DNA of 64,000 nucleotides. It comes from Asaia bogorensis NBRC 16594. GTDB taxonomy: Bacteria; Pseudomonadota; Alphaproteobacteria; Acetobacterales; Acetobacteraceae. Under the pieces are notes generated by a model that saw nothing but the letters and a program-made list of their open reading frames with translations, made no database searches and had not been told where the DNA came from. Positions 1-38,291 of this stretch are shown piece by piece. The stretch lies in contig NZ_AP014690.1 in assembly GCF_001547995.1 (NCBI RefSeq), positions 1,670,001 through 1,734,000 on the forward strand. The letters run 5' to 3'. A program made the translations under genes and the position numbers. The number at the start of each line of letters is the position of its first letter. Position 1 is the stretch's first letter.

Positions 1-962
1 TCACCCGGTTTCGCAACACGATCGGGCAGAAATCGGTTCTTGCTTCGCGCCTGCAGCCCAATCACCCGACTGACGACCTCAAGGGCATCGCCATATCGAC
101 ATTTGACGGTCTGCTTTACGGCTGTGGTGATGCCGTGATTGGCATCAACCCGGCCACAGACAATGTGGAAACCGGCTGCGCGCTGCTCGATATGCTTGAT
201 ACGCTACGCCAGACCTATGAAATCCCGACACAGAGCTGTGTGCTCACCCATGTCACAAACACAATCGAGATCATCAATAAAGGCGGTCCGGTCGATCTGG
301 TTTTCCAGTCCATTGCCGGGACACAGAAAGCCAATGAAGGCTTCGGTGTCACACTCGATATCCTGACACAGGCGCATGACGCGGCGCAGAGCCTGAACCG
401 GGGCAGCATTGGCCAAAATGTCATGTATTTCGAAACTGGCCAGGGCGCTGCGCTCTCTGCCGGGGCGCATCATGGCATTGACCAACAAACGGTCGAGACA
501 CGGGCCTATGCCGTAGCACGCGCCTTCAGCCCCCTGCTGGTCAACACAGTGGTCGGCTTCATCGGCCCTGAATATCTGTATGATGGCAAGCAGATTATCC
601 GGGCCGGGCTGGAGGACCATTTCTGCGCGAAGCTGCTGGGCGTGCCCATGGGGTGTGACGTCTGTTATACCAATCATGCCGAGGCGGACCAGGATGATAT
701 GGATGACCTGATGTTGCTCCTCGGGACCGCTGGGGTCACGTTCCTGATCGGGGTCCCAGGCGCCGATGATGTGATGCTCAATTATCAGAGCCTCGCCTTC
801 AATGACATTCTGACCACCCGCTCGCTCCTCGGCCTGAAACCTGCGCCCGAGTTCGCGGCGTGGCTTGAGCGCATGGGCCTTTACGACCCCGTGAACGAGC
901 GCGCGCTTACCGTCCCGGAGGGCGAGACCCGCCTGCGCGGGATGATTGGCTGGAAACCATGA
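1..962 (+). CDS. eutB: Ethanolamine ammonia-lyase large subunit, 5' end missing
   Basis: C-terminal 319 residues of EutB, the large subunit of the coenzyme-B12 enzyme that splits ethanolamine into acetaldehyde and ammonia. The frame is open from base 3 and runs off the left edge; the family is about 450 residues, so roughly the first third is outside the window. The conserved stretch GCGDAVIGINPATDNVE lies at visible residues 40-56 and is characteristic of the TIM-barrel catalytic subunit. The stop overlaps the start of eutC (ATGA-type overlap at 959-962), so the two subunits are translationally coupled. Neither eutA (reactivase) nor shell genes are seen downstream, which suggests a simple non-compartmentalised ethanolamine pathway. 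Confidence 0.95.
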   Translation, partial: TRFRNTIGQKSVLASRLQPNHPTDDLKGIAISTFDGLLYGCGDAVIGINPATDNVETGCALLDMLDTLRQTYEIPTQSCVLTHVTNTIEIINKGGPVDLVFQSIAGTQKANEGFGVTLDILTQAHDAAQSLNRGSIGQNVMYFETGQGAALSAGAHHGIDQQTVETRAYAVARAFSPLLVNTVVGFIGPEYLYDGKQIIRAGLEDHFCAKLLGVPMGCDVCYTNHAEADQDDMDDLMLLLGTAGVTFLIGVPGADDVMLNYQSLAFNDILTTRSLLGLKPAPEFAAWLERMGLYDPVNERALTVPEGETRLRGMIGWKP

Positions 963-1795
963 CCCGCATCGAGCCATCAACATCCAGCGAGAAGGCCGCA
1001 GCACAGCACGGCGATAACGGCTTTTGGGATGTCCTGCGACGGGAAACGCGCGCGCGTGTCGGGCTTGCCCGTACGGGCAATGCTCAGACGACGCCCGACG
1101 TGCTGGGTTTTCAGGCGGCTCATGCCCAGGCACGGGACGCGGTGCATACACCTCTCGATGTCCCTGCCCTTTCCCAAGCCCTGCTTCCTGCAGTGCCTGT
1201 CGTTGTAACGAGCGCCGCACAGGATCGGCCGACTTATCTGCGCCGGCCCGATCTCGGTCGACAACTCGATGACGCAAGCCGAGATAGCCTCAAATCGGGC
1301 AAATGGGATCTCGCTATCGTACTCGCCGATGGGCTCTCGGCACGAGCGGTTTCGGGTTACGGCCCTGCACTGTTTCATGCCTGCCTTGCCGGTATGCCCG
1401 ATCTGCGTATCGCCCCCCCTGTCATCGCCCTTCAGGGACGCGTCGCCCTTGGGGATGATATTGCCCAGAGCCTCGGGGCCAGGATGGTGGCTGTCCTGAT
1501 CGGTGAGCGACCTGGCCTTTCGGTTTCAGACAGTATGGGCGTGTATTTCACCTTCGAGCCCAGACGCGGTTGCCCGGACTCGAGACGTAATTGCCTGTCC
1601 AACATCCACACCCACGGGCTGAGTGTGACCGAGGCAAGCCTGAAACTGATCTGGCTCATTCGGGAATCCCAGCGGCTGGGCCTCAGTGGCGTCGATCTCA
1701 AGGAGCGTGCGCCTGCGGCTTCGGCAACAGATGCGGCCCGTATGGGTTCAGCCCCTCACACACAAATCAACAAGAGCCGGGAAGAGTCTCCATGA
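959..1795 (+). CDS. eutC: Ethanolamine ammonia-lyase small subunit
   Basis: 278-residue EutC, which with EutB forms the adenosylcobalamin-dependent lyase. Family signatures are visible in the C-terminal half: a run of GERPGLSVSDSMGVY followed by the cysteine-containing RRNCLSNIH segment and the GLSV...KLIWLI helix. The first 45 residues are variable, as usual for the family. The start overlaps eutB by four bases and the stop overlaps the permease start by four bases (ATGA at 1792-1795), giving a tightly coupled three-gene unit. Length is normal and no catalytic segment is missing. Confidence 0.95.
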   Translation: MTRIEPSTSSEKAAAQHGDNGFWDVLRRETRARVGLARTGNAQTTPDVLGFQAAHAQARDAVHTPLDVPALSQALLPAVPVVVTSAAQDRPTYLRRPDLGRQLDDASRDSLKSGKWDLAIVLADGLSARAVSGYGPALFHACLAGMPDLRIAPPVIALQGRVALGDDIAQSLGARMVAVLIGERPGLSVSDSMGVYFTFEPRRGCPDSRRNCLSNIHTHGLSVTEASLKLIWLIRESQRLGLSGVDLKERAPAASATDAARMGSAPHTQINKSREESP

Positions 1796-3150
1796 GTACC
1801 CAAAAGACGCAACTCGATCGCAGGTTGAGCGCCTTTCACCTGTGGGGCATCGCTGTCGGGCTCGTGATCTCCGGCGAATATTTTGGCTGGAGCTATGGCT
1901 GGGCAACAGCGGGAACGCTCGGCTTTTTGGGTGCCACCACCTTCGTGGCGATCATGTACACTGCGTTCATCTTCAGCTTCACGGAACTGACTTGCGCCAT
2001 CCCGCACGCTGGCGGCCCGTTCGCCTATGCAGACCGTGCCCTTGGCAGAGTGGGAGGGACATTGACCGGTCTCGCCACACTGGTGGAATTCATCTTTGCG
2101 CCACCCGCCATCGCGCTTGCCATCGGGGCTTATCTCAATGTGCAGTTTCCCGGCATCCCGCCAAAGGCTGCCGCGACCGGTGCCTATCTACTTTTCATGA
2201 TTCTCAATATTGTCGGCGTTCACATCGCGGCGACTTTCGAGTTGTTCGTAACGATAGCTGCAATCATCGAACTGCTTGTGTTCATGGCAGTCGTTGCGCC
2301 CTCATTCTCATGGGCGCATTTCATGCTCGATGGCTGGGGAAGTGCGCCTCATTTCGGTATTGTAGCGATGGGCGGCATGTTTGCCGCCATCCCTTTCGCC
2401 ATATGGTTCTTTCTCGCCATTGAGGGGGTGGCGATGGCGGCGGAGGAAGCGCGCGACCCTCGACGCGCCATACCGCTGGCCTATACGGCAGGTGTGCTGA
2501 CGCTGGTCGCCCTCGCCTTTGGCGTCATGGTCTTCGCGGGTGGCTCGGGGGACTGGAAGGCGCTTGCCAATCTCAACGACCCGCTGCCCCAGGCCATGAA
2601 ACGGGTTGTCGGCCCTCACAGCCCGTGGCTTTCCATGCTCGTCTGGCTGGGACTGTTTGGCCTGGTCGCCTCACTGCACGGTATTATCATGGGATTTGCA
2701 CGCCAGATCTTCGCTCTGGCCCGTGGCGGTATATTGCCTGGTTTCCTCGGGACGCTTCATCCCAGATTTCACACACCGCATCGCGCGACCATGGCGGGAA
2801 GCCTTATCGGTATCATCGCCATCTATGCAGATGATCTCGTCTCGATTGGGGGGCAACCCCTGACAGCCACATTGGTCACGCTTTCGGTCTTTGGCGCGCT
2901 CACCATGTACGGGATGAGCATGATCAGTCTCTTTGTTCTGCGCTGGCGCGAACCGCAGATGGAACGCAGCTACAAGGCACCTTTCTATCCCGTGCTGCCC
3001 GCTATTGCCCTGGCCGGCGCAGCAATCTGCTTCTTTGCAGTATCGTATTATAATTTTATATTGTTTCTGTTCTACGTATTATCGGTATTTATTGTGATTG
3101 TTGCTTGTAATATCACGAAAATATTCAATAAGCTCAGCGTAATGAAATAA
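1792..3150 (+). CDS. eat: Ethanolamine permease (APC family)
   Basis: 452-residue inner-membrane amino acid-polyamine-organocation transporter with about 12 hydrophobic segments. I chose the ATG at 1792 because it overlaps the eutC stop and begins directly before the hydrophobic core; a frame open further upstream runs through eutC and is not used. The N-terminal LWGIAVGLVISGEYFGWSYG is typical of ethanolamine permeases. Position immediately after eutBC points to ethanolamine import rather than a generic amino acid. The last 30 codons are clearly AT-richer than the rest. Another small amine is the main alternative substrate. Confidence 0.9.
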   Translation: MSTQKTQLDRRLSAFHLWGIAVGLVISGEYFGWSYGWATAGTLGFLGATTFVAIMYTAFIFSFTELTCAIPHAGGPFAYADRALGRVGGTLTGLATLVEFIFAPPAIALAIGAYLNVQFPGIPPKAAATGAYLLFMILNIVGVHIAATFELFVTIAAIIELLVFMAVVAPSFSWAHFMLDGWGSAPHFGIVAMGGMFAAIPFAIWFFLAIEGVAMAAEEARDPRRAIPLAYTAGVLTLVALAFGVMVFAGGSGDWKALANLNDPLPQAMKRVVGPHSPWLSMLVWLGLFGLVASLHGIIMGFARQIFALARGGILPGFLGTLHPRFHTPHRATMAGSLIGIIAIYADDLVSIGGQPLTATLVTLSVFGALTMYGMSMISLFVLRWREPQMERSYKAPFYPVLPAIALAGAAICFFAVSYYNFILFLFYVLSVFIVIVACNITKIFNKLSVMK

Positions 3151-4734: not shown

Positions 4735-5667
4735 CTAGCGTTCCTCACGAAAATAAGGTGTGCCCAGTGCGGCGGGCGCCGCCATCAGGCGACGCATACC
4801 GGGCAGCAGGAGAGCGGGCAGGATCATGAACATAATGGTGCCGAGATAAGGGGTCATGTTCAGGATGGCCGGGGCAATCGGCCAGCCCTGCGCCTGTCCG
4901 AAGAAGCTGAGCGACATGACGAGCCCGAATAACAGGGACGACAGCGCCGCAAAAATCGGGCGGTAACCGCAGAAAATGACCAGCGCCACGGCAATCCATC
5001 CACGACCGGCAATCATGCCCTCTGACCAGACGGGCATGACCGACAGGGTCATGTCGGCACCAGCCAGACCGGCCAGCGCTCCGCCAGCTACCACGGCACT
5101 TAGTCGATAGCGGCGCACCGGAATACCGACAGCATCAGCCGCCGCAGGATTTTCGCCCACCGAACGCAGGCTCAGCCCGAGGCGGGAGCGGAAAAGGACG
5201 CAATGGCACAAAGCGGGCAGGATGACGAAGGCGAGATAGACGAACGGGCTTTGACTGAACAGAACCCCAATGCCCGGCAAGCTGCTCAAACCCGGGATCG
5301 CCCAGTTGTCGAAAACCGCGGCAACGGGCAAGCCTGCAACGGCATGGCCGATAACCGCGCTCAGCCCCAACCCAAGAAAGGTCAGGGCGACGCCGCAGAG
5401 TGTCTGATTGGCCGAGACATTGACCGTAGCAAGCCCGAGCACGAGCGCCCCTGCACCACCCGTGCAAAGCGCCGCCAGACAGCCCATCCAGGGCGACATG
5501 GAGGCATCAGCGGCAAGCACGGCGACAACCGCACCAAGGGCCATGAGCCCCTCGACACCAAGGTTGATGACCCCAGCGCGTTCGGCAATGACTTCGCCTT
5601 GCGCGGCCAGAGCGAGGATACTGCCATAGGCCAGCGCATGAAGAACCAGAGGGATCCACACCGTCAT
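4735..5667 (-). CDS. Nucleoside/purine ABC transporter permease 2
   Basis: 310-residue permease of the BPD_transp_2 type (COG1079-like), the second inner-membrane subunit of a BMP-family nucleoside or purine importer. The signature GEVIAERAGVINLGVEGLMA near residues 24-43 is diagnostic of this half of the permease pair, followed by eight or more hydrophobic segments. It is the last gene of a seven-gene minus-strand operon and its start overlaps the stop of permease 1 by four bases. Its neighbours (guanine/8-oxoguanine-type deaminases) suggest the cargo is a purine base or nucleoside. Confidence 0.9.
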   Translation of the reverse strand: MTVWIPLVLHALAYGSILALAAQGEVIAERAGVINLGVEGLMALGAVVAVLAADASMSPWMGCLAALCTGGAGALVLGLATVNVSANQTLCGVALTFLGLGLSAVIGHAVAGLPVAAVFDNWAIPGLSSLPGIGVLFSQSPFVYLAFVILPALCHCVLFRSRLGLSLRSVGENPAAADAVGIPVRRYRLSAVVAGGALAGLAGADMTLSVMPVWSEGMIAGRGWIAVALVIFCGYRPIFAALSSLLFGLVMSLSFFGQAQGWPIAPAILNMTPYLGTIMFMILPALLLPGMRRLMAAPAALGTPYFREER

Positions 5668-6704
5668 TTCTGTGTCTCCAGACGCACATAGGCTGCAAGC
5701 TCGTCACTCACCGCAATGGCAAAAACCAGCAAACCCGTGATCGCCAGTACGGAGGACGCGCTGACCTGCAAGGTCTGCAAAACGATCCCGGTATTAAGGA
5801 TCACTGCCATCAGAAACGAAGCAGGGATAAGGGCATAGGCGGAATGGCGCGCAAGCAACGCGACCACGATACCGAGATAGCCATAGCCGTGCGCGAGGCC
5901 GCCCTGAAGCCGGTGTACCGTACCCAGCGCCTCCATCATCCCTCCAAGTCCGGCAAGGGCGCCGGACGCCATAAGGGCGACGAAAAGCCGTGGTGCAACC
6001 CTGATCCCGGCATAGCGCGCGGCCTCGGGATTGGACCCGCACAGCGTCAGCTCGTAACCGAAACGGCTGCGCTTGAGGAGATAGCCGATAGCCACGACCA
6101 GAACGATTGCAACAATTCCCCCCCAGTGCACGACGCCATAGATGGTGGGGATGGCAACCGAGAGACGCTGGCTCGACACCTGCGCATCCGTCACGTGATC
6201 GGCCCAGGGGCCTGTGACGAGGTAATAGACGACGAACGACGCGATGAAATTGAGCAAAAGCGTGGTGATGATTTCACTGACGCCAAGCCATGCCCGCCCT
6301 GCGGCCGGCACGGCGCTCCACGCGGCGCCAGCCGCCAGACTGGCAAGCATCGCCAGAGGCAAGGAAAGTGGCAATGGCATGGGAAGGAACAGGGCCACAG
6401 CCGACGCTGCCGTGGCACCTGCGAGAAACTGGCCCTCGGCGCCAATATTCCATAGCCCGGCGCGAAGAGACAACCACACCGCACCACCCGTCATAAGCAA
6501 GGGCGTCATGTAGAGCGCGAGATTTTCGAGACCGAAAACAGTACCGAAGGTCGAGGTTACGACAAGTCCCAGCACCATACCAAGCGGCAAACCGAGAATG
6601 GCCAGAACGAGCGCCAGCACGAGCGCAACGAAGCCCAATGCCAGAAGGCGCCCGATCAGGATACGGCGGGCCGGAACCACAGCAAGGCGAATTCTTCGGC
6701 TCAT
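5664..6704 (-). CDS. Nucleoside/purine ABC transporter permease 1
   Basis: 346-residue permease (COG4603-like), first of the two membrane subunits. The arginine-rich cytoplasmic N-terminus (residues 1-18) and the AGLWNIGAEGQFLAGATAA motif near residue 85 are typical. Several transmembrane helices follow, with a FGYELTLCGSNPEAARYAGI loop that contacts the ATPase. Stop and start overlap the flanking genes by four bases (ATGA), so all transporter subunits are co-translated. Confidence 0.9.
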   Translation of the reverse strand: MSRRIRLAVVPARRILIGRLLALGFVALVLALVLAILGLPLGMVLGLVVTSTFGTVFGLENLALYMTPLLMTGGAVWLSLRAGLWNIGAEGQFLAGATAASAVALFLPMPLPLSLPLAMLASLAAGAAWSAVPAAGRAWLGVSEIITTLLLNFIASFVVYYLVTGPWADHVTDAQVSSQRLSVAIPTIYGVVHWGGIVAIVLVVAIGYLLKRSRFGYELTLCGSNPEAARYAGIRVAPRLFVALMASGALAGLGGMMEALGTVHRLQGGLAHGYGYLGIVVALLARHSAYALIPASFLMAVILNTGIVLQTLQVSASSVLAITGLLVFAIAVSDELAAYVRLETQK

Positions 6705-8281
6705 GCTGCGGTCTCCCCTGCGCGGCCACTCATCAAAGCGCCCAATCTCGCCCTGTCAAAATCCTTGCGCTCGACGATGGTCATCAACATACCGGCGCAC
6801 AGCACCGCAATCCGGTCGCTCAGCGCCATCAGTTCATCCAGATCTTCCGACACGAGCACAACGGCCCGTCCCTCGTCACGGATTTCGGCCAGTGTCTCAC
6901 GCATCAGGGAGATCGCCCCGATATCAAGACCACGGCTCGGATAGCTCGCAATCAGGGCGCGGTGACTGATCATCCGCTCACGGGCCAGAACCATGCGCTG
7001 CTGATTGCCACCCGAGAGACCACGCATCGGCGTGGATGGGTCCTTCACCGTCACACGCGCCTGTTCGAGCAAGCTTTTCGTGAACGCGCGCGCCTGACTG
7101 GCGTGGTAGGCCATCCGTCCGCCGACCGGGTGCGAGCGAAATACGCGCATGACGGCATTCTCGGTCACGCCGAGCGCCGGGGCGAGGGCCTTGTGCAGCC
7201 TGTCCTCGGGAACATAGCCAATGCCTGCCTCGCGAAAGGCACCCGGCCCCTGCCCGCGCATGTCTGTCGAACCGACATGGACAGAACCTGTCAACGGCGC
7301 GTTGAGTCCGGCGAGCAGATCAGCCAGTTCGGATTGGCCATTGCCTGTCACGCCCGCCACCCCGAGGATCTCGCCCGCCCTGATGTCGAGCGAGAGCGGA
7401 TGCAACCGCAGGCGACCCGCGCTATCCCGAAAGCTCACCTCGTGCAGCCGTATGACCGTCTCGCTCTTCCCCTGAGGCGTCGTGCGCGGATAGGACGTCT
7501 TTTGCTCGACAGGACGCCCGATCATCTCGGTTACGAGGGTGGCAGGGTCAGTGTGGTCCACCCTGTGGCTGCCAGCGACACGGCCATGACGCAGCACAGT
7601 CACGCGATCCGCCAAAGCCATGATCTCATCAAGCTTGTGACTGATCAGGATAACGGCCCCGCCCCCATCGCGAAAACGACGCAATGCGGCATAGAGCTCA
7701 CCCACTTCAAGCGGGCTCAGCACAGCTGTCGGCTCGTCAAGGATAAGCAGGCGTGCCCCACGGGAGAGGACACGCAGGATTTCAACGCGCTGCTGCTCGC
7801 CAGAGGTCAGGCTGTCGATGGGTGCCTGAGGCCGGATGTCGAGACCAAACCGGGCGGCTTCCGCCTCTGCGCGTCGGGCAAGCGTTTTTGCCGAGAGCCA
7901 TTTACCGGTTTCGCGCCACCCCAGCGCCAGATTTTCCGCAACGGTGAAACGCGATACCAGCTTGAAATGCTGATGTACCATGCCGATACCGGCCGCGATC
8001 GCTGCTTCGGGGCTTTCAAGGCGCATACCATAACCATCGAGGATCAGCTCGCCCTCATCGGGCTGGTAAAGGCCGGTCACGATATTCATCAGCGTGGATT
8101 TGCCTGCGCCATTTTCACCCAGCAGCGCATGAATTTCACCGGGGTAGAAATCGATCGTGACATCCTTGTTTGCGATCACACCGGGAAAATACTTCGCGAT
8201 TCCAGAGAGGGTAAGCAGAGGCGGTGCGCCGGGCGGCAGATTATCCGGTCTGGCTTCCGCGAGATGTGAGAGGTCAGACAA
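6701..8281 (-). CDS. Nucleoside/purine ABC transporter, tandem ATPase
   Basis: 526-residue protein with two fused nucleotide-binding domains, like the simple-sugar/nucleoside importer ATPases (COG3845). Domain 1 has Walker A GENGAGKST (residues 54-62), signature LTSGEQQRVEILR near 160 and Walker B LLILDEPTAVLS. Domain 2 has a degenerate Walker A (GVTGNGQSELADLL) and signature LSGGNQQRMVLARE. An intact first and altered second site is usual in this family. The start overlaps the binding-protein gene by eight bases. Confidence 0.93.
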   Translation of the reverse strand: MSDLSHLAEARPDNLPPGAPPLLTLSGIAKYFPGVIANKDVTIDFYPGEIHALLGENGAGKSTLMNIVTGLYQPDEGELILDGYGMRLESPEAAIAAGIGMVHQHFKLVSRFTVAENLALGWRETGKWLSAKTLARRAEAEAARFGLDIRPQAPIDSLTSGEQQRVEILRVLSRGARLLILDEPTAVLSPLEVGELYAALRRFRDGGGAVILISHKLDEIMALADRVTVLRHGRVAGSHRVDHTDPATLVTEMIGRPVEQKTSYPRTTPQGKSETVIRLHEVSFRDSAGRLRLHPLSLDIRAGEILGVAGVTGNGQSELADLLAGLNAPLTGSVHVGSTDMRGQGPGAFREAGIGYVPEDRLHKALAPALGVTENAVMRVFRSHPVGGRMAYHASQARAFTKSLLEQARVTVKDPSTPMRGLSGGNQQRMVLARERMISHRALIASYPSRGLDIGAISLMRETLAEIRDEGRAVVLVSEDLDELMALSDRIAVLCAGMLMTIVERKDFDRARLGALMSGRAGETAA

Positions 8282-9371
8282 GTCCCGATACTCCCTCGAC
8301 CTGCCAGTTCCAGTGGAAGATTTCCATGTCGCTCATGGTGTGCCCCGCCGGCACGCGGATCTGCCCCTTGGAGTCCCTTATCGGCCCGGTGAAGGGCGAC
8401 CAGCCCGCCAGCATGCGCTCACGCGCTGCATCGGCTTCGCGACGAATGGAATCAGGCACATTCTTGCCCCAGGCATCGCGATCAACACCATGACCGAGCT
8501 TGAGGAAAGTCCCGGTGGGGCGCCAGCGTCCGGCAAGGCGTGCGGCGATCGTCTCGCGGTAATAATCCTCGAAATCCAGCACGACAGAGCTGACATAGGC
8601 GTCAGGCCCGAACTGCCGCATATCGGTGTTCCACATGGCGGCCCAGACGCCCCGTTGCTGCGCAACGCGCAGATAACCGGGGTCGTCCATGATGCCGCAC
8701 AGGAAGTCGCAGCCGCTATCGATCAGAGCTGCACCTGCCGAGGCCGCGGCCTGGGGATCGAACCAGGAGTTGATGGAAATGACCCGCATGGTCGCCTCAG
8801 GGTTGACCGAGCGGGCGCCAAGCAGCGTCGCATTGGCGCTGGCAATGACCGATGTTGTAGGAAAGGAGGCGATATAACCCAGCCTGCCGTTGTGACTCAG
8901 TCGGGCAGCGGCGATGCCAATCACGTAGCTGGCATACCAGTGGGTGATGTAATACCAGCCCAGATTACCCGTAACATTATTGCCGTCACATTCAAGAAAA
9001 CCCACATCCGGCGCCTGATCCGCAACGTCCTTGATGAAATCACCATAATCCGAGGTGGAGATCACCATCTGTGCGCCCTCGGCCACAAACTGCCTGAACA
9101 GTCGGGTTGCGTCAGCCGAGTACGGTATGCTCTCGACGTAGAGCGAGCGCATGCGCGGGAAATGCGATTTGAGGGCACGGATGGCCTTGTCATGCATCTG
9201 TGTCCAGCCGCCATCATTAATCGGGCTGGTATGGCCGAACCCGACAAGCAGATCCTCCTCGGCAATCGGAGCAAAGCGTGGTGCGGCGCTTGCCCCTCCT
9301 GCCAGAGCGGCACATCCACCCGCGGCCAGCAGCCCACGGCGGGTCAGGAGAGCAGGTCGTTTCAATGACAT
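8274..9371 (-). CDS. BMP-family purine/nucleoside-binding protein
   Basis: 365-residue periplasmic binding protein of the BMP/PnrA lipoprotein family (COG1744). Residues 1-29 form an export signal with RRG before a hydrophobic stretch and an ASAAP cleavage site, so a Tat signal is plausible; it lacks the lipobox Cys of many BMP proteins. GFGHTSPINDGGWTQMHDKA follows, typical of the ligand-binding N-lobe, and YASYVIGIAAARLS lies further on. It supplies substrate to the two permeases and the ATPase encoded downstream. Confidence 0.9.
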   Translation of the reverse strand: MSLKRPALLTRRGLLAAGGCAALAGGASAAPRFAPIAEEDLLVGFGHTSPINDGGWTQMHDKAIRALKSHFPRMRSLYVESIPYSADATRLFRQFVAEGAQMVISTSDYGDFIKDVADQAPDVGFLECDGNNVTGNLGWYYITHWYASYVIGIAAARLSHNGRLGYIASFPTTSVIASANATLLGARSVNPEATMRVISINSWFDPQAAASAGAALIDSGCDFLCGIMDDPGYLRVAQQRGVWAAMWNTDMRQFGPDAYVSSVVLDFEDYYRETIAARLAGRWRPTGTFLKLGHGVDRDAWGKNVPDSIRREADAARERMLAGWSPFTGPIRDSKGQIRVPAGHTMSDMEIFHWNWQVEGVSGLV

Positions 9372-9922
9372 GAGGCAATTCCCGGCATGACCACAAAGCC
9401 GGGCAACTGCCTGACCTGACGGATGAAGCGTCGAAGAGCGGGATACAGATCCATAGCAACGCCCAGATCATGCGCCAGCGCGGCGACCGGGAAGAGGATC
9501 ACATCCACAAAGCCGATCGTGCGGCCCGAAAACCAGATCTCGTCCCGGAACGCCCCCGCAGACAGACGATCTTCCATTTCACGAAACAGGAACGTGACAG
9601 GCTCGGTCTCGGCCTTGCGTGGAAGTGTCGCCGCCAGAGCCTCGCGTCGTGCCTCTGAAAAAAGCTCTATCCCATCGAGCGCCCATTTCATGACCTGCCG
9701 CGCCTCGCCCTCGGGCCAGAGCCAACCAGTCTCTGACGCGCGCGAGAAATGCTCGAGAATCTCGTAGAGGCCGACACACGAGACCATCTCATCAGTCAGG
9801 GTCGGGCCGAAGGTTTCCGCGCGACGATCGGTCGCGAATGCCAGAGGGATATCCATCAACGATGCCGCAAGACGGGCCGCATAGCTGCGCTCATCGATCA
9901 TCCAGCCATTGAGCGTCAGCAT
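9362..9922 (-). CDS. Glutathione S-transferase-like protein
   Basis: 186-residue protein resembling the thioredoxin-fold plus helical domain of GST-like proteins. The C-terminal half (WFSGRTIGFVDVILFPV) matches the N-capping/hydrophobic-staple region of GST helical domains, while the N-terminal half is divergent and has no clear glutathione Ser/Cys motif. It overlaps the binding-protein start by ten bases and the Rieske stop by seven. A structural or binding role within the purine oxidation machinery is as likely as glutathione transfer. Confidence 0.5.
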   Translation of the reverse strand: MLTLNGWMIDERSYAARLAASLMDIPLAFATDRRAETFGPTLTDEMVSCVGLYEILEHFSRASETGWLWPEGEARQVMKWALDGIELFSEARREALAATLPRKAETEPVTFLFREMEDRLSAGAFRDEIWFSGRTIGFVDVILFPVAALAHDLGVAMDLYPALRRFIRQVRQLPGFVVMPGIASCH

Positions 9923-10512
9923 GATGTCTCCTCCAGCGTGTCACGCAGCCGGAGCAGCCATGACGCCGCCTGCTCCCGATGCGAGGCATCGCGTACAGCG
10001 AGATGGACCATGGTGATTCCCTCCACGGGCGTATGCAGCGCCAGCAGGCGGTCGGCAGAGAGGCGCCATTGTCCCTCATCCATCACGAGGGCTGCTCGCG
10101 TGTCGTGCTCGGTGGCCCGTATGCCAAGGCTTCGCGCACCATGCCAGATCCCTTCCGCCGGGGCGATCAGAGGGCGGTCATCGCCCGAGGTGAGATCGAC
10201 CCAGATCATCCCGGCCTTTTCGATTAGCTCATAGGGGCGTGTTCGTATGGTCGAGGGCGGATTGAGCTCGGGATGGGCGGGTATGGCACGACAGCGCCCC
10301 TCGGTATCGAACTGCCAGCCGTGATAAAGACAGGCCAGACGATTATCACGCATGAAGCCAAGGCTGAGACGTACGCCGCGATGAGGACAACGATCCTCCC
10401 AGGCATGCGCGATGCCCGCCTCGTCGCGCCAAAGCACGAGCGACAGGCCCCTATGACGGGCGGGGGCAATATCACCCGGGGCCAGGTCCTTTGACAGGGC
10501 AACAGGGATCAT
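9916..10512 (-). CDS. Stand-alone Rieske [2Fe-2S] protein
   Basis: 198-residue protein with a complete Rieske cluster site: RCPHRG (Cys42, His44) and CLYHGW (Cys61, His64), spaced as in ring-hydroxylating oxygenases. The remaining 100 residues do not contain a D-x2-H-x4-H mononuclear iron site. Family knowledge: this domain normally forms the N-terminus of the oxygenase alpha subunit. Here it is a separate gene, divergent from an oxygenase (10865-11737) that lacks this cluster site. I infer the two proteins act together. The ATG overlaps the upstream small gene by four bases. A free ferredoxin role is the alternative. Confidence 0.85.
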   Translation of the reverse strand: MIPVALSKDLAPGDIAPARHRGLSLVLWRDEAGIAHAWEDRCPHRGVRLSLGFMRDNRLACLYHGWQFDTEGRCRAIPAHPELNPPSTIRTRPYELIEKAGMIWVDLTSGDDRPLIAPAEGIWHGARSLGIRATEHDTRAALVMDEGQWRLSADRLLALHTPVEGITMVHLAVRDASHREQAASWLLRLRDTLEETSC

Positions 10513-10760
10513 CGCCGGTATCCTTCTGTCCAGTCATTGACGAGGCAACCCACCGGGCCAACCAGACAGGCCATCACGAACATCCCTACCAGCGGCTGCG
10601 CACCTTTCACGACAAACACGATATCAGTCGCCTCCAGACGCTCTGTGCGCATATCGAGTGACAGAAGGCGTGCGCGGCCCTCGGCAAAAGACCGAAACGC
10701 TTCAGTGTCGAAATGACCTGTGAGATGAAGTGCAGTGGCTATAGTCCCTCGCTCCCGCAT
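10509..10760 (-). CDS. Small acylphosphatase-like protein
   Basis: 83 residues. The pattern HLTGHFDTEAFRSFAEGRA followed by a V-x-GA...F...GP segment resembles the acylphosphatase fold (family motif G-x-V-Q-G-V-x-F-R). The FR arginine is kept, but the glycine-rich phosphate loop and the catalytic Asn appear changed. It is the first gene of the minus-strand purine operon. I chose the ATG at 10760 over a GTG three bases upstream. Function is unknown; it may be a small accessory or structural subunit of the oxygenase. The fold assignment is tentative. Confidence 0.5.
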   Translation of the reverse strand: MRERGTIATALHLTGHFDTEAFRSFAEGRARLLSLDMRTERLEATDIVFVVKGAQPLVGMFVMACLVGPVGCLVNDWTEGYRR

Positions 10761-10802
10761 CACGGCGTTGCATACCAGCTGATCCTGCCAGTAATATTTT
10801 TT

Positions 10803-10830
10803 TTGACAAGTGCAGGACCACTATTAATGT
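10803..10830 (+). promoter_or_regulatory. Likely promoter of the plus-strand purine operon
   Basis: TTGACA at 10803-10808 and TAATGT at 10825-10830, with a 16-base spacer, directly upstream of the oxygenase gene and after a run of eight T residues. It lies in the divergent gap between the two purine operons, where a common regulator would be expected to bind. Confidence 0.5.
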
Positions 10831-10864
10831 AACCGTTATCGCAACGACGAGGATGGCTGTCAGG

Positions 10865-11737
10865 ATGACCTCACCAGCAAATGTGGATCCGGTCTCACTC
10901 AGCCAGTGGTATCCGCTCGGGATGATCGAGGCCCTGTCTGACATCTGGGTGCAAACCATGCTGCTCGGTGTCGTCATCCGTTTCCGTCGTATGGCTGATG
11001 GTACGGTCGAGGTCGCACATGGCGCGCATTCCCTGCCCTGCTGCGAGCGCTACGGCTATGTCTGGACCAGTCTCGCAACGGATCCTGCTCTTCGTGATGC
11101 CATGATCCGTATCGATGAGGCCGATGAATCCGACCGCCGACTTGTGTGCTGCGGGTCGGTGGCCGTCAATGCTTCCGGGCTACGCGTGGTTGAGAACTTC
11201 CTCGATATGGCGCATTTCCCCTTTGTGCATACCGACATACTGGGCGCAGAGCCGCATACCGAGGTCCAGCGTTACACCGTCGAAACACGCGATGACGGCA
11301 AGGAAATCTGGGCGACGGATTGCCGGTTTTTCCAGCCGCAGGCAGCGCTCTCGGCCGAAGGCGGCATCATGACCGACTATGTCTATCGCATTGCCGGTCC
11401 GTTCGCGACGCTGCTGTACAAGACCAGCCCCGGTGATGACCAACGCAAGGACGTGATTGCGCTGTTCGTCCAGCCCATGACGGCCGGTACATGTCGTGCC
11501 CATCCGGTCATGTTTCTTCTCGACGATCACTCCGATCTTGATGCTTTGGTGGAGTTCCAGCAGACGATCTTCTTGCAGGATCGCATCATTCTGGAAAGCC
11601 AGCGGCCGGTTGCCATGCCGCTCGATGCCGCGAGCGAGATTCCCACCCTGGCAGACCGTTCCTCGGTGGCCTATCGCCGCTGGCTCAAGGCCCGTGGTGT
11701 CACATTTGGCGCGGGCGCCGCCAGAGCCGCCGCCTGA
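10865..11737 (+). CDS. Ring-hydroxylating oxygenase catalytic subunit lacking the Rieske cluster
   Basis: 290-residue alpha-subunit-like oxygenase. The mononuclear iron site is intact: NFLDMAHFPFVH gives Asn111, Asp114, His117 and His122. The N-terminus (QWYPLG...LLGVVIRF) and the later ERYGYVWTSL align with the flanks of a normal Rieske domain, but the C-x-H...C-x2-H cluster part between them (about 45 residues) is missing. The cluster is carried by the divergent Rieske gene. By analogy with HpxD-type oxygenases that hydroxylate hypoxanthine or xanthine, and because of the deaminases next to it, I infer a purine substrate. An ATG at 10853 is possible, but its SD would abut the codon. Confidence 0.8.
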   Translation: MTSPANVDPVSLSQWYPLGMIEALSDIWVQTMLLGVVIRFRRMADGTVEVAHGAHSLPCCERYGYVWTSLATDPALRDAMIRIDEADESDRRLVCCGSVAVNASGLRVVENFLDMAHFPFVHTDILGAEPHTEVQRYTVETRDDGKEIWATDCRFFQPQAALSAEGGIMTDYVYRIAGPFATLLYKTSPGDDQRKDVIALFVQPMTAGTCRAHPVMFLLDDHSDLDALVEFQQTIFLQDRIILESQRPVAMPLDAASEIPTLADRSSVAYRRWLKARGVTFGAGAARAAA

Positions 11738-11752
11738 ACGAAGGAAAAGACC

Positions 11753-12250
11753 ATGAGCCATCCCCCAAACGAGACCGATCTGACGTTTCTGCGTCAGGCT
11801 TTCGAGGTCGCCAACCGGTCCCGCCTTGCGGGCGATCATCCCTTCGGCGCCCTGTTGGTGGATGAAACCGGCGAGATCGTCATGGAACAGGGCAATGGCT
11901 ACAGCACCGAGGGACAGGACATGACCGCTCATGCTGAGCGCCTTCTCGCCAGCCGGGCGAGCCGTATGTTCGGGCCAACAAGATTGCGCGGTTACACACT
12001 GTACAGTTCTGCCGAGCCCTGTGCCATGTGCGCCGGGGCCATCTACTGGGCGGGGATCGGTCGGGTCGTGTACGGGCAGTCCGAGGCCCATCTCAAGGCC
12101 ATGACTGGCGCCCACCCTGAAAATCCGACACTCGATCTGCCTTGCCGGGTGGTTTTCTCCGCCGGGCAGACTCCGGTGGAGGTTCTAGGGCCATTGCTGG
12201 AGGATGAGGCCGCAGAGTTGCAGCGCAGCTTCTGGAAGGACCACGCCTGA
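11753..12250 (+). CDS. Nucleobase/nucleoside deaminase (guanine deaminase type)
   Basis: 165-residue zinc deaminase of the cytidine-deaminase fold. Zinc and proton-transfer residues are present: HAE (His60, Glu62) and PCAMC (Cys90, Cys93) followed by AGAIYWAGIGRVVYG. Guanine deaminase GuaD and tRNA adenosine deaminase TadA share this layout; the purine transporter and 8-oxoguanine deaminase around it favour a purine base. It follows the oxygenase by 15 bases with an AAGGAAAAG ribosome-binding site, so they are co-transcribed. Confidence 0.85.
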   Translation: MSHPPNETDLTFLRQAFEVANRSRLAGDHPFGALLVDETGEIVMEQGNGYSTEGQDMTAHAERLLASRASRMFGPTRLRGYTLYSSAEPCAMCAGAIYWAGIGRVVYGQSEAHLKAMTGAHPENPTLDLPCRVVFSAGQTPVEVLGPLLEDEAAELQRSFWKDHA

Positions 12251-12429: not shown

Positions 12430-13794
12430 ATGCCTCTCGCCTTGTCACCCTCCATCCTGATCACGGATGCCTATCTCTATCTCGATCGCGGCCATGAAAT
12501 AGCAAATGGCTGGATTTATCTCGAAAATGGCCGGGTCCGCGGTTTTGGCTCCATGACGACCCCAAGACCTGCAGCCGACCGCACGATCTCAGCGGCAGGT
12601 CGGATTGTCACTCCAGGGCTGGTGAATGCGCATCACCATATGTACCAGAACCTCACGCGGTCCTACGCGCCAGTCGTGAATGGCACCCTGTTCGAATGGC
12701 TGCAGGGCCTCTACCCGCTCTGGGCCACGCTTGATGAGGAGAATGTCTATCTCTCCTCTTATGTCGCCATGATGGAATTACTGCTTGGTGGCTGCACGAC
12801 ATCGATGGATCATCATTACGTCCACCCCCGGCCTCGGCTGATCGATGCCCAGATCCGCGCTGCAAGGGATATCGGCTTTCGCTTCCATGCCACGCGCGGC
12901 TCCATGACGCGCTCGGTGAAAGATGGTGGCCTGCCACCGGATAGCGTGGTGCAGAGCGAGGATGTTATCCTGTCTGACAGTGAGCGCCTGATCAGCGCCT
13001 ATCATGACGCCTCCCCCGGCGCGATGATCCGTGTGGCGCTGGCACCCTGCTCGCTGTTCAGCGTGTCGGAAACGATCATGAAAGAGAGCGCGCTCATGGC
13101 AGAGCGCCTCGATGTGCGCCTGCACACCCATCTGGCGGAGGACCACGACGAGGACCGATATTGTCAGGATGTGTATGGCTGCACCCCAACCGAATATTTC
13201 GAGCGTTCGGGCTGGGCCAGCGAGCGATCATGGGTCGCGCACTACATCTATCCCAGCGGCGACGAGATCGATCGCCTGGCGCATAAGGGTGTCTGCACGG
13301 CGCAATGCCCCTGCTCGAACATGATGATCGGTGGTGGCGCGGCGGATGCGATGGACATGCGACGCCGAGGCATGAAAGTCGGGCTCGGCTGCGACGGCTC
13401 TGCCTCGACCGATCATGCGTCCCTCTGGCTCGAAGCGCGTATGGCACTGCTTCTGGGGCGCTACCGCAATGGCCCGCACAGCATGAAAGCGCGTGATGCG
13501 CTGGATATGGCAACCCGTGGCGGCGCGGCCTGTCTGGGCCGTGAGGATGAAATCGGCCATCTCCGTATGGGCGCTTGCGCCGATCTGGTGATATGGGAGC
13601 TGCCCCCCTTCTCAAGGGCCGGGGCACTCAGCGACCCGGTTGAGGCGCTTTTACGCTGTGCTCCGGCAACAGCATGGACAACCATCGTCAATGGCCGGAT
13701 CCTCGTGGAAGATGGTCAGCCTTGCCAATCAGGCCTCGACATCATCCTTCGTGAACATGAGCGGGCTGCGCGGCGGATGCAGAAACTCGACTGA
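12430..13794 (+). CDS. 8-oxoguanine deaminase-type amidohydrolase
   Basis: 454-residue metal-dependent amidohydrolase of the ATZ/TRZ-like group. The metal site motif NAHHHMYQNLTR (His68-70), the HTHLAED segment and the CDGSAS aspartate are all present, as is the amidohydrolase C-terminal beta-sandwich (ADLVIW). Family members deaminate 8-oxoguanine to uric acid, and some also deaminate guanine or isocytosine. With the oxygenase this would give two routes to urate-type products. It follows the deaminase after 179 bases without another gene and has an AGGAG site before ATG. Confidence 0.88.
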   Translation: MPLALSPSILITDAYLYLDRGHEIANGWIYLENGRVRGFGSMTTPRPAADRTISAAGRIVTPGLVNAHHHMYQNLTRSYAPVVNGTLFEWLQGLYPLWATLDEENVYLSSYVAMMELLLGGCTTSMDHHYVHPRPRLIDAQIRAARDIGFRFHATRGSMTRSVKDGGLPPDSVVQSEDVILSDSERLISAYHDASPGAMIRVALAPCSLFSVSETIMKESALMAERLDVRLHTHLAEDHDEDRYCQDVYGCTPTEYFERSGWASERSWVAHYIYPSGDEIDRLAHKGVCTAQCPCSNMMIGGGAADAMDMRRRGMKVGLGCDGSASTDHASLWLEARMALLLGRYRNGPHSMKARDALDMATRGGAACLGREDEIGHLRMGACADLVIWELPPFSRAGALSDPVEALLRCAPATAWTTIVNGRILVEDGQPCQSGLDIILREHERAARRMQKLD

Positions 13795-37249: not shown

Positions 37250-37283
37250 TTGATGGGCGCGATTGATAGCGAGACTCAGGCCG

Positions 37284-38291
37284 ATGCATCTCGCTACGGT
37301 AAAAAGACGTCAAACGCCGCGGTTAAGTCGACTACCGGCCGCCAATATTATTAGGGATTACAAGGCCTTGTCTCTAAATCCCCCTTCATCTCCGGCCACC
37401 CCAAAGCAAGGTATTCTAGACCTAGGGATTGAGATCGAGCGCGTCATAGCCGGCATAGAAATGGGCGTGTTGGAAAATGGCACCCCCTACCTAACACAGC
37501 GAGGCTTGGCTGGAATGTCAGGCGCCGCAAGATCAACCCTGCAAGAGCTGACCCTCGAATGGGAGACAGCTCATCAAACTGGGATATTTGGTTCTAAGCG
37601 CGTGTCTTGGTTCAAAGACTATCTGGCTGAAAAAGCTTACGGCGAACCTAGTCTCTACATTGAGATACGAAAAGACGGATCAGCGCACTACGCTTATCCA
37701 GATGTCGTATGCATGGCGGTCATCGAGTATTTTGCATTCGAAGCACAGAGAACGAATGAAACGGCGCTAAAAAGCTTCCGCCAACTTGCGCGTTTCGGCC
37801 TCCAAAGTTTCATCTACGAAGCCTTGGGATACGCTCCTCCTGACAAGTGGAAGTACTATCATGATCGCGTATCTTTACTTGTCGGGGGAGCACCTGACGG
37901 ATACTTCATTGTGTTCAACGAGGTGGGAGGGATGATTGTCGACTTAATAAATGCTGATGTTGGCGTAAATGATAAAACGATACCTGACATCAGCGTTGGG
38001 AAGGCTTGGGGGAGCTATTGGACGAAAAACAATCTCGAAAATACTTATGGCCCCCGAGTAGTATTCGAGCACAATTATCCCTCTTACTATCCTCAGGCAG
38101 CTAGCAACCCGCAACGCCCTTGGGCATACCCAAATGAGGCTTTGGCCGAGTTTCGCCGGTGGTTTCGACACGAATATCTCACCACTCGTTTCCCAAAATA
38201 CATATTGACAAAAGCTCACCTGATTGGCGGACAAGAAGAGGCCAAACGTATTGGGCAGATCTATCAGCCCCGCGCTTTGAGCGGTCCATAA
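37284..38291 (+). CDS. BstA-like abortive infection protein
   Basis: 335 residues. The N-terminal half (GIEMGVLENGTPYLTQRGLA, residues 59-78) looks like a KilA-N-type DNA-binding region. The C-terminal half has YHDRVSLL, DISVGKAWGSYW, FEHNYPSYYPQAASNPQ and EFRRWFRHEYL, which I recognise from prophage BstA proteins. BstA makes infected lysogens abort other phages, while the host prophage escapes through a DNA element (aba) at the start of its own gene. AT-richer than neighbours and followed by a truncated gene, so probably an acquired moron. ATG 37284 or TTG 37263 could be the start. Confidence 0.65.
   Translation: MHLATVKRRQTPRLSRLPAANIIRDYKALSLNPPSSPATPKQGILDLGIEIERVIAGIEMGVLENGTPYLTQRGLAGMSGAARSTLQELTLEWETAHQTGIFGSKRVSWFKDYLAEKAYGEPSLYIEIRKDGSAHYAYPDVVCMAVIEYFAFEAQRTNETALKSFRQLARFGLQSFIYEALGYAPPDKWKYYHDRVSLLVGGAPDGYFIVFNEVGGMIVDLINADVGVNDKTIPDISVGKAWGSYWTKNNLENTYGPRVVFEHNYPSYYPQAASNPQRPWAYPNEALAEFRRWFRHEYLTTRFPKYILTKAHLIGGQEEAKRIGQIYQPRALSGP

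Follow-up and report, generated by a model that had tools for sequence, protein, structure and literature searches.

A conserved Rieske oxygenase divided between a stand-alone Rieske protein and a Rieske-less catalytic subunit in Asaia bogorensis

The window analysed here is a stretch of 64,000 nucleotides from the genome of Asaia bogorensis NBRC 16594 (one contig, 3.2 Mb). It carries a ring-hydroxylating oxygenase split into two open reading frames (ORFs), one for a catalytic subunit lacking a Rieske domain and the other for a stand-alone Rieske protein (Table 1). This split had been proposed in the initial annotation of the DNA, and both ORFs were found where it had placed them. The start assigned to the catalytic gene, 10865, is an in-frame second ATG, while the ORF opens earlier, at the ATG at 10853. 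The missing Rieske site does sit on a gene of the divergent operon, but that gene is the second one, behind an acylphosphatase-like ORF of 84 amino acids (aa), and not the first. The operon is transcribed away from the catalytic gene in the order acylphosphatase-like, Rieske, GST-like and BMP-type ABC transporter, with overlapping genes. Its GST-like and acylphosphatase-like members had been overlooked. No promoter or terminator signals were found at 10500-10950, and no purine riboswitch or other RNA was found in the window at Rfam gathering scores.

Table 1. Genes and sites of the split oxygenase locus, in window coordinates
Feature	Position	Strand	Remarks
Rieske-less catalytic subunit (NdmC-like), 294 aa	10853..11737	+	VanA_C 74.1 bits; alternative start 10865
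D118-x2-H121-x4-H126 motif	11204..11230	+	identical in 50/50 aligned rows
Asp243 codon	11579..11581	+	identical in 50/50 aligned rows
Junction at the missing 49-residue cluster-binding subdomain	11003..11014	+	from alignment with full-length oxygenases; precise to a few codons
Stand-alone Rieske [2Fe-2S] protein, 198 aa	9916..10512	-	Pfam Rieske 76 bits (cut-off 20.3)
Domains of the Rieske protein			Rieske, residues 1-108; reduced C-terminal domain, about 120-198
Cluster ligands C42, H44, C61, H64	10321..10389	-	identical in 53/53 aligned rows
Acylphosphatase-like protein, 84 aa	10509..10763	-	first gene of the operon; 4-base overlap with the Rieske gene
GST-like protein (NdmE-like), 186 aa	9362..9922	-	7-base overlap with the Rieske gene
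BMP-type ABC transporter (substrate-binding protein, ATPase, two permeases)	4735..9371	-	Pfam Bmp, ABC_tran, BPD_transp_2 (twice); same operon
Cytidine-deaminase-type deaminase	11753..12250	+	directly 3' of the catalytic gene; Pfam dCMP_cyt_deam_1 79.9 bits
8-Oxoguanine deaminase	12430..13794	+	NCBIfam NF006055 559.6 bits (cut-off 532)

Is the cluster-binding part truly missing from the catalytic protein? A clean deletion had been expected, and alignment with full-length oxygenases bore this out: a single run of 49 residues, spanning the CPHRG...CAYHG site, is absent. When the protein is aligned with the full-length oxygenase of the same genome, the 49-residue gap is accompanied by a second gap of 6 residues at the extreme N-terminus. 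I scanned public genomes with the catalytic alignment and obtained at least 540 relatives. All locus counts given below refer to the best 80, which are species-representative genome records from Acetobacteraceae, Rhizobiales, Rhodobacterales, two Rhodococcus and others; the nearest named relative, Asaia bogorensis, shares 96% identity with the window in the catalytic protein. The same 49-residue gap is seen in the relatives' rows that were aligned, and none of the 80 catalytic ORFs has the Rieske motif C-x-H...C-x2-H. Loss of the cluster-binding subdomain from the catalytic protein is demonstrated by these sequence alignments.

The iron site, on the other hand, is kept. The residues previously named Asp114, His117 and His122 are present, and counting from the first ATG makes them 118, 121 and 126. 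Judging from what is known of the family, Asp118 is presumably the electron-bridging Asp of the D-x2-H-x4-H motif and no iron ligand, with Asp243 as the probable third ligand. These four residues are invariant in the catalytic alignment, which consists of the window, three further rows and 46 of the 79 usable catalytic loci, the broken Asaia platycodi gene being left out. Thus, of the features of a canonical alpha subunit, the facial triad and the bridging Asp are found (with residue roles taken from family knowledge), while Rieske and catalytic domains on one chain are not. The AlphaFold model of the catalytic protein (pLDDT 86.9) has SxtT/GxtA as its best Foldseek matches, with a TMq of 0.75-0.81. 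SxtT is also the best PDB sequence match for both proteins; the match of the Rieske protein spans residues 16-121 of SxtT and that of the catalytic protein residues 103-333. The two pieces are thus complementary, with about 19 residues kept twice, and the strand around E-x-x-G-x-x-W is retained by both. Within the genus, the ratio of nonsynonymous to synonymous substitution rates (dN/dS) is 0.07-0.27 for the catalytic, Rieske, acylphosphatase-like and GST-like genes, as estimated between the window and two genomes with the larger dS values near saturation.

In Asaia platycodi, the catalytic gene lies in two overlapping frames (locus L115, 7965-8908; L038 is on the same contig) and is either broken or misread. 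At L038, the transporter ATPase gene and a sodium/hydrogen exchanger-like gene are likewise fragmented, and the assembly may be poor.

The four cluster ligands of the Rieske protein are invariant in an alignment of the window, two further rows and 50 Rieske loci out of 68 usable ones, rows cut by the end of a stretch being left out. The protein is not a Rieske ferredoxin in the sense of a short single domain of about 100 aa, since a second folded domain is present. Its AlphaFold model has a mean pLDDT of 92.7, with residues 121-198 at 87-98 per 10-residue block, and R127, S128, H170 and R190 are conserved in this tail. Among the 50 Foldseek rows listed for the Rieske protein against full-length Rieske oxygenases, 44 have a TMq of 0.65-0.78 and 6 a TMq of 0.60-0.62; the alignments span 173-298 columns (at least 254 in 43 rows). 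Since the 108-residue Rieske domain alone could give a TMq of about 0.55 at most, the match reaches beyond the Rieske domain. A profile of the tail also matches the linkers of three NdmD-like proteins, in which a Rieske domain is fused to a reductase (93.3%, E 2.7e-7). In turn, comparison of these three linkers with the catalytic profile gives a match along 147 columns (71.1%, E 3.7e-5). The NdmD-linker profile, like the NdmE profile used below, was built from the three reductase-fused clusters alone.

The structure prediction and the NdmD linker profile support the loss of most of the catalytic domain from the Rieske protein. They likewise support a view of the tail as a shrunken catalytic domain minus its iron-site part, a view that draws on the structure comparison and the NdmD-like linkers rather than on the profile of the tail itself. 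The catalytic and Rieske proteins look like two copies of an alpha subunit that have lost opposite halves, namely reciprocally degenerated paralogues.

Do the two genes occur together in other genomes? A separate Rieske protein was found within the stretch at 72 of the 80 loci. The remaining 8 genomes were searched whole, and each gave a Rieske match of 140.7-186 bits, the next match being at 93.1 bits or less. Homologues without the partner would have spoken against the pairing, but the Rieske partner was found in all 80 genomes with the catalytic gene. Among 385 genomes sampled evenly across the class, with at most 6 and 8 candidates scored per genome, catalytic matches above 230 bits were found in 8 genomes, the very ones that gave Rieske matches of at least 126 bits. 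Below these, the best catalytic matches, at 115 bits in the genomes G377 and G378, are single frames with both parts, that is, full-length oxygenases. The Rieske margin in this sample is narrow, since the last true match scores 126.0 bits and the full-length oxygenase of G378 scores 123.7 bits. The split enzyme is real and conserved.

The number of genes per system varies in places. In S. meliloti (L160, 9074-10885), two consecutive Rieske-less catalytic genes are followed by one Rieske-reductase gene, and at locus L144 a pair of catalytic genes, separated by about 12 kb, goes with one matching Rieske gene. Two Rhodococcus loci (L119 and L123) carry the same split system; in the catalytic tree, L119 clusters with Roseibium (100/100), a placement suggestive of transfer between phyla.

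Among the 72 loci with a Rieske protein in the stretch, 62 have an acylphosphatase-like gene and 59 a GST-like gene. Over all 80 loci, the acylphosphatase-like gene was counted at 65 and the GST-like gene, at 25 bits or more, at 59. As a family, the GST-like proteins match three NdmE-like proteins at profile level (probability 98.4%, E 5.2e-15), and the single-sequence match is 40% over 43 aa (E 7e-10). By analogy with the role ascribed to NdmE, the GST-like protein probably holds the complex together. The 84-aa protein matches acylphosphatase weakly (NCBIfam E 0.0032, Pfam E 0.11), while its relatives are annotated as acylphosphatase in Paracoccus and Rhizobium; its gene has a dN/dS of 0.10-0.12. 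The catalytic motif of acylphosphatases is presumably an Arg and an Asn, and R24 was taken as this Arg. It is Arg in 10 of 66 aligned 84-aa proteins and the conserved Asn was not seen, although the correspondence is unsure with such a weak family match. The acylphosphatase-like protein may be a second scaffold.

Where do the electrons come from? The remark that no reductase is seen nearby was correct, and among the related loci a VanB-type reductase lies in the stretch at one of 80 (L090). The window's genome yielded no NdmD/VanB-type reductase, the VanB query giving a single match of 37 bits. The Fer2 proteins of this genome are, by putative identity, an isc-type ferredoxin and an XdhA-like protein only. 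Given this negative result for an NdmD/VanB-type reductase, a general ferredoxin with a ferredoxin reductase probably serves as the donor in Asaia.

Because a BMP-type transporter, a probable guanine deaminase and an 8-oxoguanine deaminase adjoin the oxygenase, oxidation or N-demethylation of a guanine- or xanthine-type purine is the most likely reaction. The cytidine-deaminase-type protein falls far under the TadA cut-off (64 vs 150 bits), and I infer that it is a guanine deaminase. Such a protein was found at 8 of the 80 loci, while an amidohydrolase like that of L050, which passes the guanine deaminase model TIGR02967, was found at 43. Three amidohydrolases of the L050 type were scanned; two pass TIGR02967 and that of L047 lies just under it. 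One or the other deaminase type is present at 48 loci, and at 33 of these it is directly 3' of the catalytic gene (29 amidohydrolases and 4 of the cytidine-deaminase type). Proteins like the 8-oxoguanine deaminase of the window occur at 28 loci, and the two that were scanned pass the 8-oxoguanine deaminase model; the amidohydrolases of R. johnstonii and L121 fail it. A role in cytokinin degradation was also considered, and a literature search gave nothing relevant.

As a first guess, to be held tentatively, the enzyme may N-demethylate an N-methylated guanine or xanthine, such as 7-methylguanine, with the guanine then passing to the adjoining deaminase. The homology to NdmC points to this, as do the two unrelated deaminase families directly 3' of the catalytic gene at 33 loci, where the guanine specificity of the cytidine-deaminase type is presumed. 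However, the formaldehyde genes frmA/fghA were found at none of the 80 loci, unlike in the caffeine-type cluster, which speaks against demethylation, and no paper was found that links 7-methylguanine with a demethylase and Rieske. It is rather doubtful that the enzyme is instead a C8-hydroxylase, which would convert guanine to 8-oxoguanine, to be turned into urate by the linked deaminase, so that xanthine dehydrogenase is by-passed. The 8-oxoguanine-deaminase-like proteins and the lack of formaldehyde genes would fit such a route, and the related hpxDE products are active in purine oxidation according to PMC7373994. On the other side, the deaminases directly 3' of the catalytic gene would compete for guanine, and NdmC, the closest tested homologue, is an N7-demethylase.

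Taken as a whole, the locus quite probably encodes a heteromeric Rieske oxygenase or demethylase of the NdmCDE kind, with its redox centres on two polypeptides, acting in guanine/xanthine catabolism; the substrate and the donor are the presumed parts of this explanation. The stand-alone Rieske protein would accept electrons from a soluble donor, dock like the neighbouring subunit of an ordinary alpha3 trimer and, as homology suggests, hand electrons to the mononuclear iron of the catalytic protein. The GST-like protein, and probably also the acylphosphatase-like protein, would keep the complex together, as the comparison with NdmE suggests. Both redox proteins would descend from full-length alpha subunits that degenerated reciprocally. 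Since Rieske oxygenases pass electrons between neighbouring subunits, the metal sites need not, in principle, share a chain. In CntA, according to PMC7948474, the centres are 44 Å apart within a chain and about 12 Å apart between neighbouring chains, with a bridging carboxylate, and an inter-chain path is thus normal. By analogy, a trimer with Rieske and catalytic parts from different chains could keep a CntA-like geometry.

Several observations weigh against this explanation. The root-mean-square deviation of the Foldseek matches of the Rieske protein is large, 5-11 Å, and the profile of its tail matches the catalytic profile (1.9%, E 0.025) and full-length oxygenases (0.1%, E 0.52) weakly. 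A mirror tree of the two redox proteins beyond the transporter signal gave a partial r of 0.33 over 52 loci, which is modest and not decisive, and the acylphosphatase-like gene is absent at 10 of the 72 Rieske-bearing loci. Two FAD_binding_6 ORFs are present in the window's genome, and Rhizobium sp. L51/94 has a VanB-type reductase elsewhere in its genome (170.6 bits); a dedicated donor may thus exist in general. As for the substrate, 32 of the 80 loci have no guanine deaminase in the stretch, and a xanthine hydroxylase would be redundant, since the genome has an XdhA-like protein.

Two other explanations of the gene pair were weighed. The Rieske protein might be a mobile ferredoxin-type donor for a conventional full-length oxygenase, with the catalytic protein using another route, and the genome does have a 346-aa full-length oxygenase (L031) and two further Rieske ORFs. 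This is quite improbable, because the protein is an SxtT/NdmA-type Rieske with a second domain and no ferredoxin, and because it tracks the catalytic gene across the sampled genomes. That a decayed oxygenase, or one shortened by a sequencing or assembly deletion, lies beside an unrelated ferredoxin-like Rieske carrier is hardly credible: the two-frame gene of Asaia platycodi indicates that loss may occur, but the Rieske motif is absent from all 80 catalytic ORFs across Acetobacteraceae, Rhizobiales, Rhodobacterales and Rhodococcus, the aligned rows share the same gap and have invariant ligands, dN/dS is low and the partner is present in all 80 genomes. A pseudogene or assembly artefact was ruled out by the conservation across families and phyla.

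If the split enzyme of the NdmCDE kind is accepted, what does it mean? Small separate proteins would allow each metal site to be loaded alone, catalytic subunits to be swapped and inter-chain electron transfer to be measured directly, and the system points to an uncharacterised step of purine breakdown. The two catalytic genes per Rieske gene in S. meliloti and at L144 suggest the idea of a shared electron-delivery module. A broader proposal, somewhat short of an even chance in my estimation, is that there is a widespread class of four-subunit oxygenases whose redox centres lie on two paralogues, both derived from one ancestral alpha subunit and reciprocally degenerate. Such enzymes would have a scaffold of GST-like and pseudo-acylphosphatase proteins, be fed by a general ferredoxin, use the Rieske protein as a shared electron module for different catalytic subunits, and act on a guanine derivative rather than caffeine.

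Elsewhere in the window, EutB (ethanolamine ammonia-lyase, a partial match), EutC and an amino-acid permease are encoded at 135-3150, near the transporter operon. An apparent prophage lies at 23557-59431, where 8 of 10 scanned proteins matched phage families (integrase, replication protein, terminase, portal, head, tail sheath and tape measure). A BstA abortive-infection protein is encoded inside it at 37263-38291 (344 bits).

Among known systems, the closest is NdmCDE, an enzyme of caffeine degradation. It had been claimed that both centres share one chain in known Rieske oxygenases, and NdmCDE is a counter-example to this. According to PMC4408171 and PMC10380055, the enzyme of P. putida CBB5 consists of the Rieske-less NdmC, the reductase NdmD with an extra Rieske cluster and the GST-like NdmE, which is required for the complex; NdmC is an N7-demethylase and the substrate of NdmCDE is 7-methylxanthine. 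PMC4408171 also mentions ndmCDE homologues in 18 organisms, mostly Sinorhizobium and Mesorhizobium, and some of the present relatives may therefore have been listed earlier. The structure of the NdmCDE complex is unsolved according to a 2026 paper (PMC13237722).

The homology tests used the NdmC/D/E-like proteins of P. putida KF715 (plasmid pKF715A) and of two other plasmids, not those of CBB5 itself, and the KF715 proteins are so labelled from the same gene order and architecture. With the KF715 NdmC-like protein, which is also Rieske-less, the catalytic protein shares 49% identity over 273 aa, and the Rieske part is 43% identical over 105 aa to the Rieske domain of the NdmD-like protein. The tree built from the catalytic part sets its 40 Rieske-less proteins, the NdmC-like ones included, as a single group (100/98) against 6 full-length oxygenases, with a warning of long branches.

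Three arrangements can be distinguished. A Rieske domain fused to a reductase is found in P. putida KF715, Paraburkholderia caffeinilytica and S. meliloti. A stand-alone Rieske protein with its own VanB reductase gene is found in Paracoccus alcaliphilus (L159) and Komagataeibacter nataicola (L163). A stand-alone Rieske protein without such a reductase in the stretch is found in the window and at all of the 80 loci but L090, the Rieske ORFs measuring 99-373 aa from stop to stop at 72 loci. In P. caffeinilytica (L158, 9034-11670), the NdmD-like gene is annotated from 10276, hence without its Rieske domain, whereas an upstream open frame has the Rieske motif; the NdmC-like gene is likewise annotated short.

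The plasmid clusters of P. alcaliphilus and K. nataicola resemble the window in their separate Rieske protein, Rieske-less oxygenase and GST, and that of P. alcaliphilus also in its acylphosphatase, BMP transporter and 8-oxoguanine deaminase, but both differ in having their own PDR/VanB reductase gene. These two clusters are annotated, and a description of them was not found in open-licence PMC papers; nor was one of the stand-alone-Rieske arrangement found there. The K. nataicola plasmid (L163, 4984-6973) also carries a second, highly divergent Rieske-less oxygenase with a GST, beside a full-length NdmA-like gene, and a 177-aa Rieske protein in the same stretch has an incomplete C-x-H...C-x2-H motif, the second Cys being missing.

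Other relatives are more distant in architecture. Both window proteins find their best matches in structure and sequence among SxtT/GxtA and NdmA/NdmB, which have both centres in one chain. HpxD/HpxE of Klebsiella share the setting of a purine-oxidising Rieske oxygenase, and annotated HpxD proteins are 30-32% identical to the catalytic part; an HpxD-like protein of KF715 (L157, my label) differs in being full length with its Rieske domain kept. With NdmCDE, the window shares the Rieske-less catalytic subunit, a Rieske domain on another chain, a GST-like helper and the purine setting. It differs in that its Rieske protein stands alone with 198 aa, while the NdmD-like protein is a Rieske-reductase fusion of 585 aa, in the shorter GST-like protein (186 aa vs 214 aa for NdmE-like), in the additional acylphosphatase-like protein and in the negative search of the window's genome for an NdmD-type reductase. 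NdmCDE had already shown that the metal sites can lie on separate chains, with the Rieske cluster on the reductase, and a simpler form of this is present here in 80 genome records. The system is a variant of the NdmCDE kind and not a separate kind.

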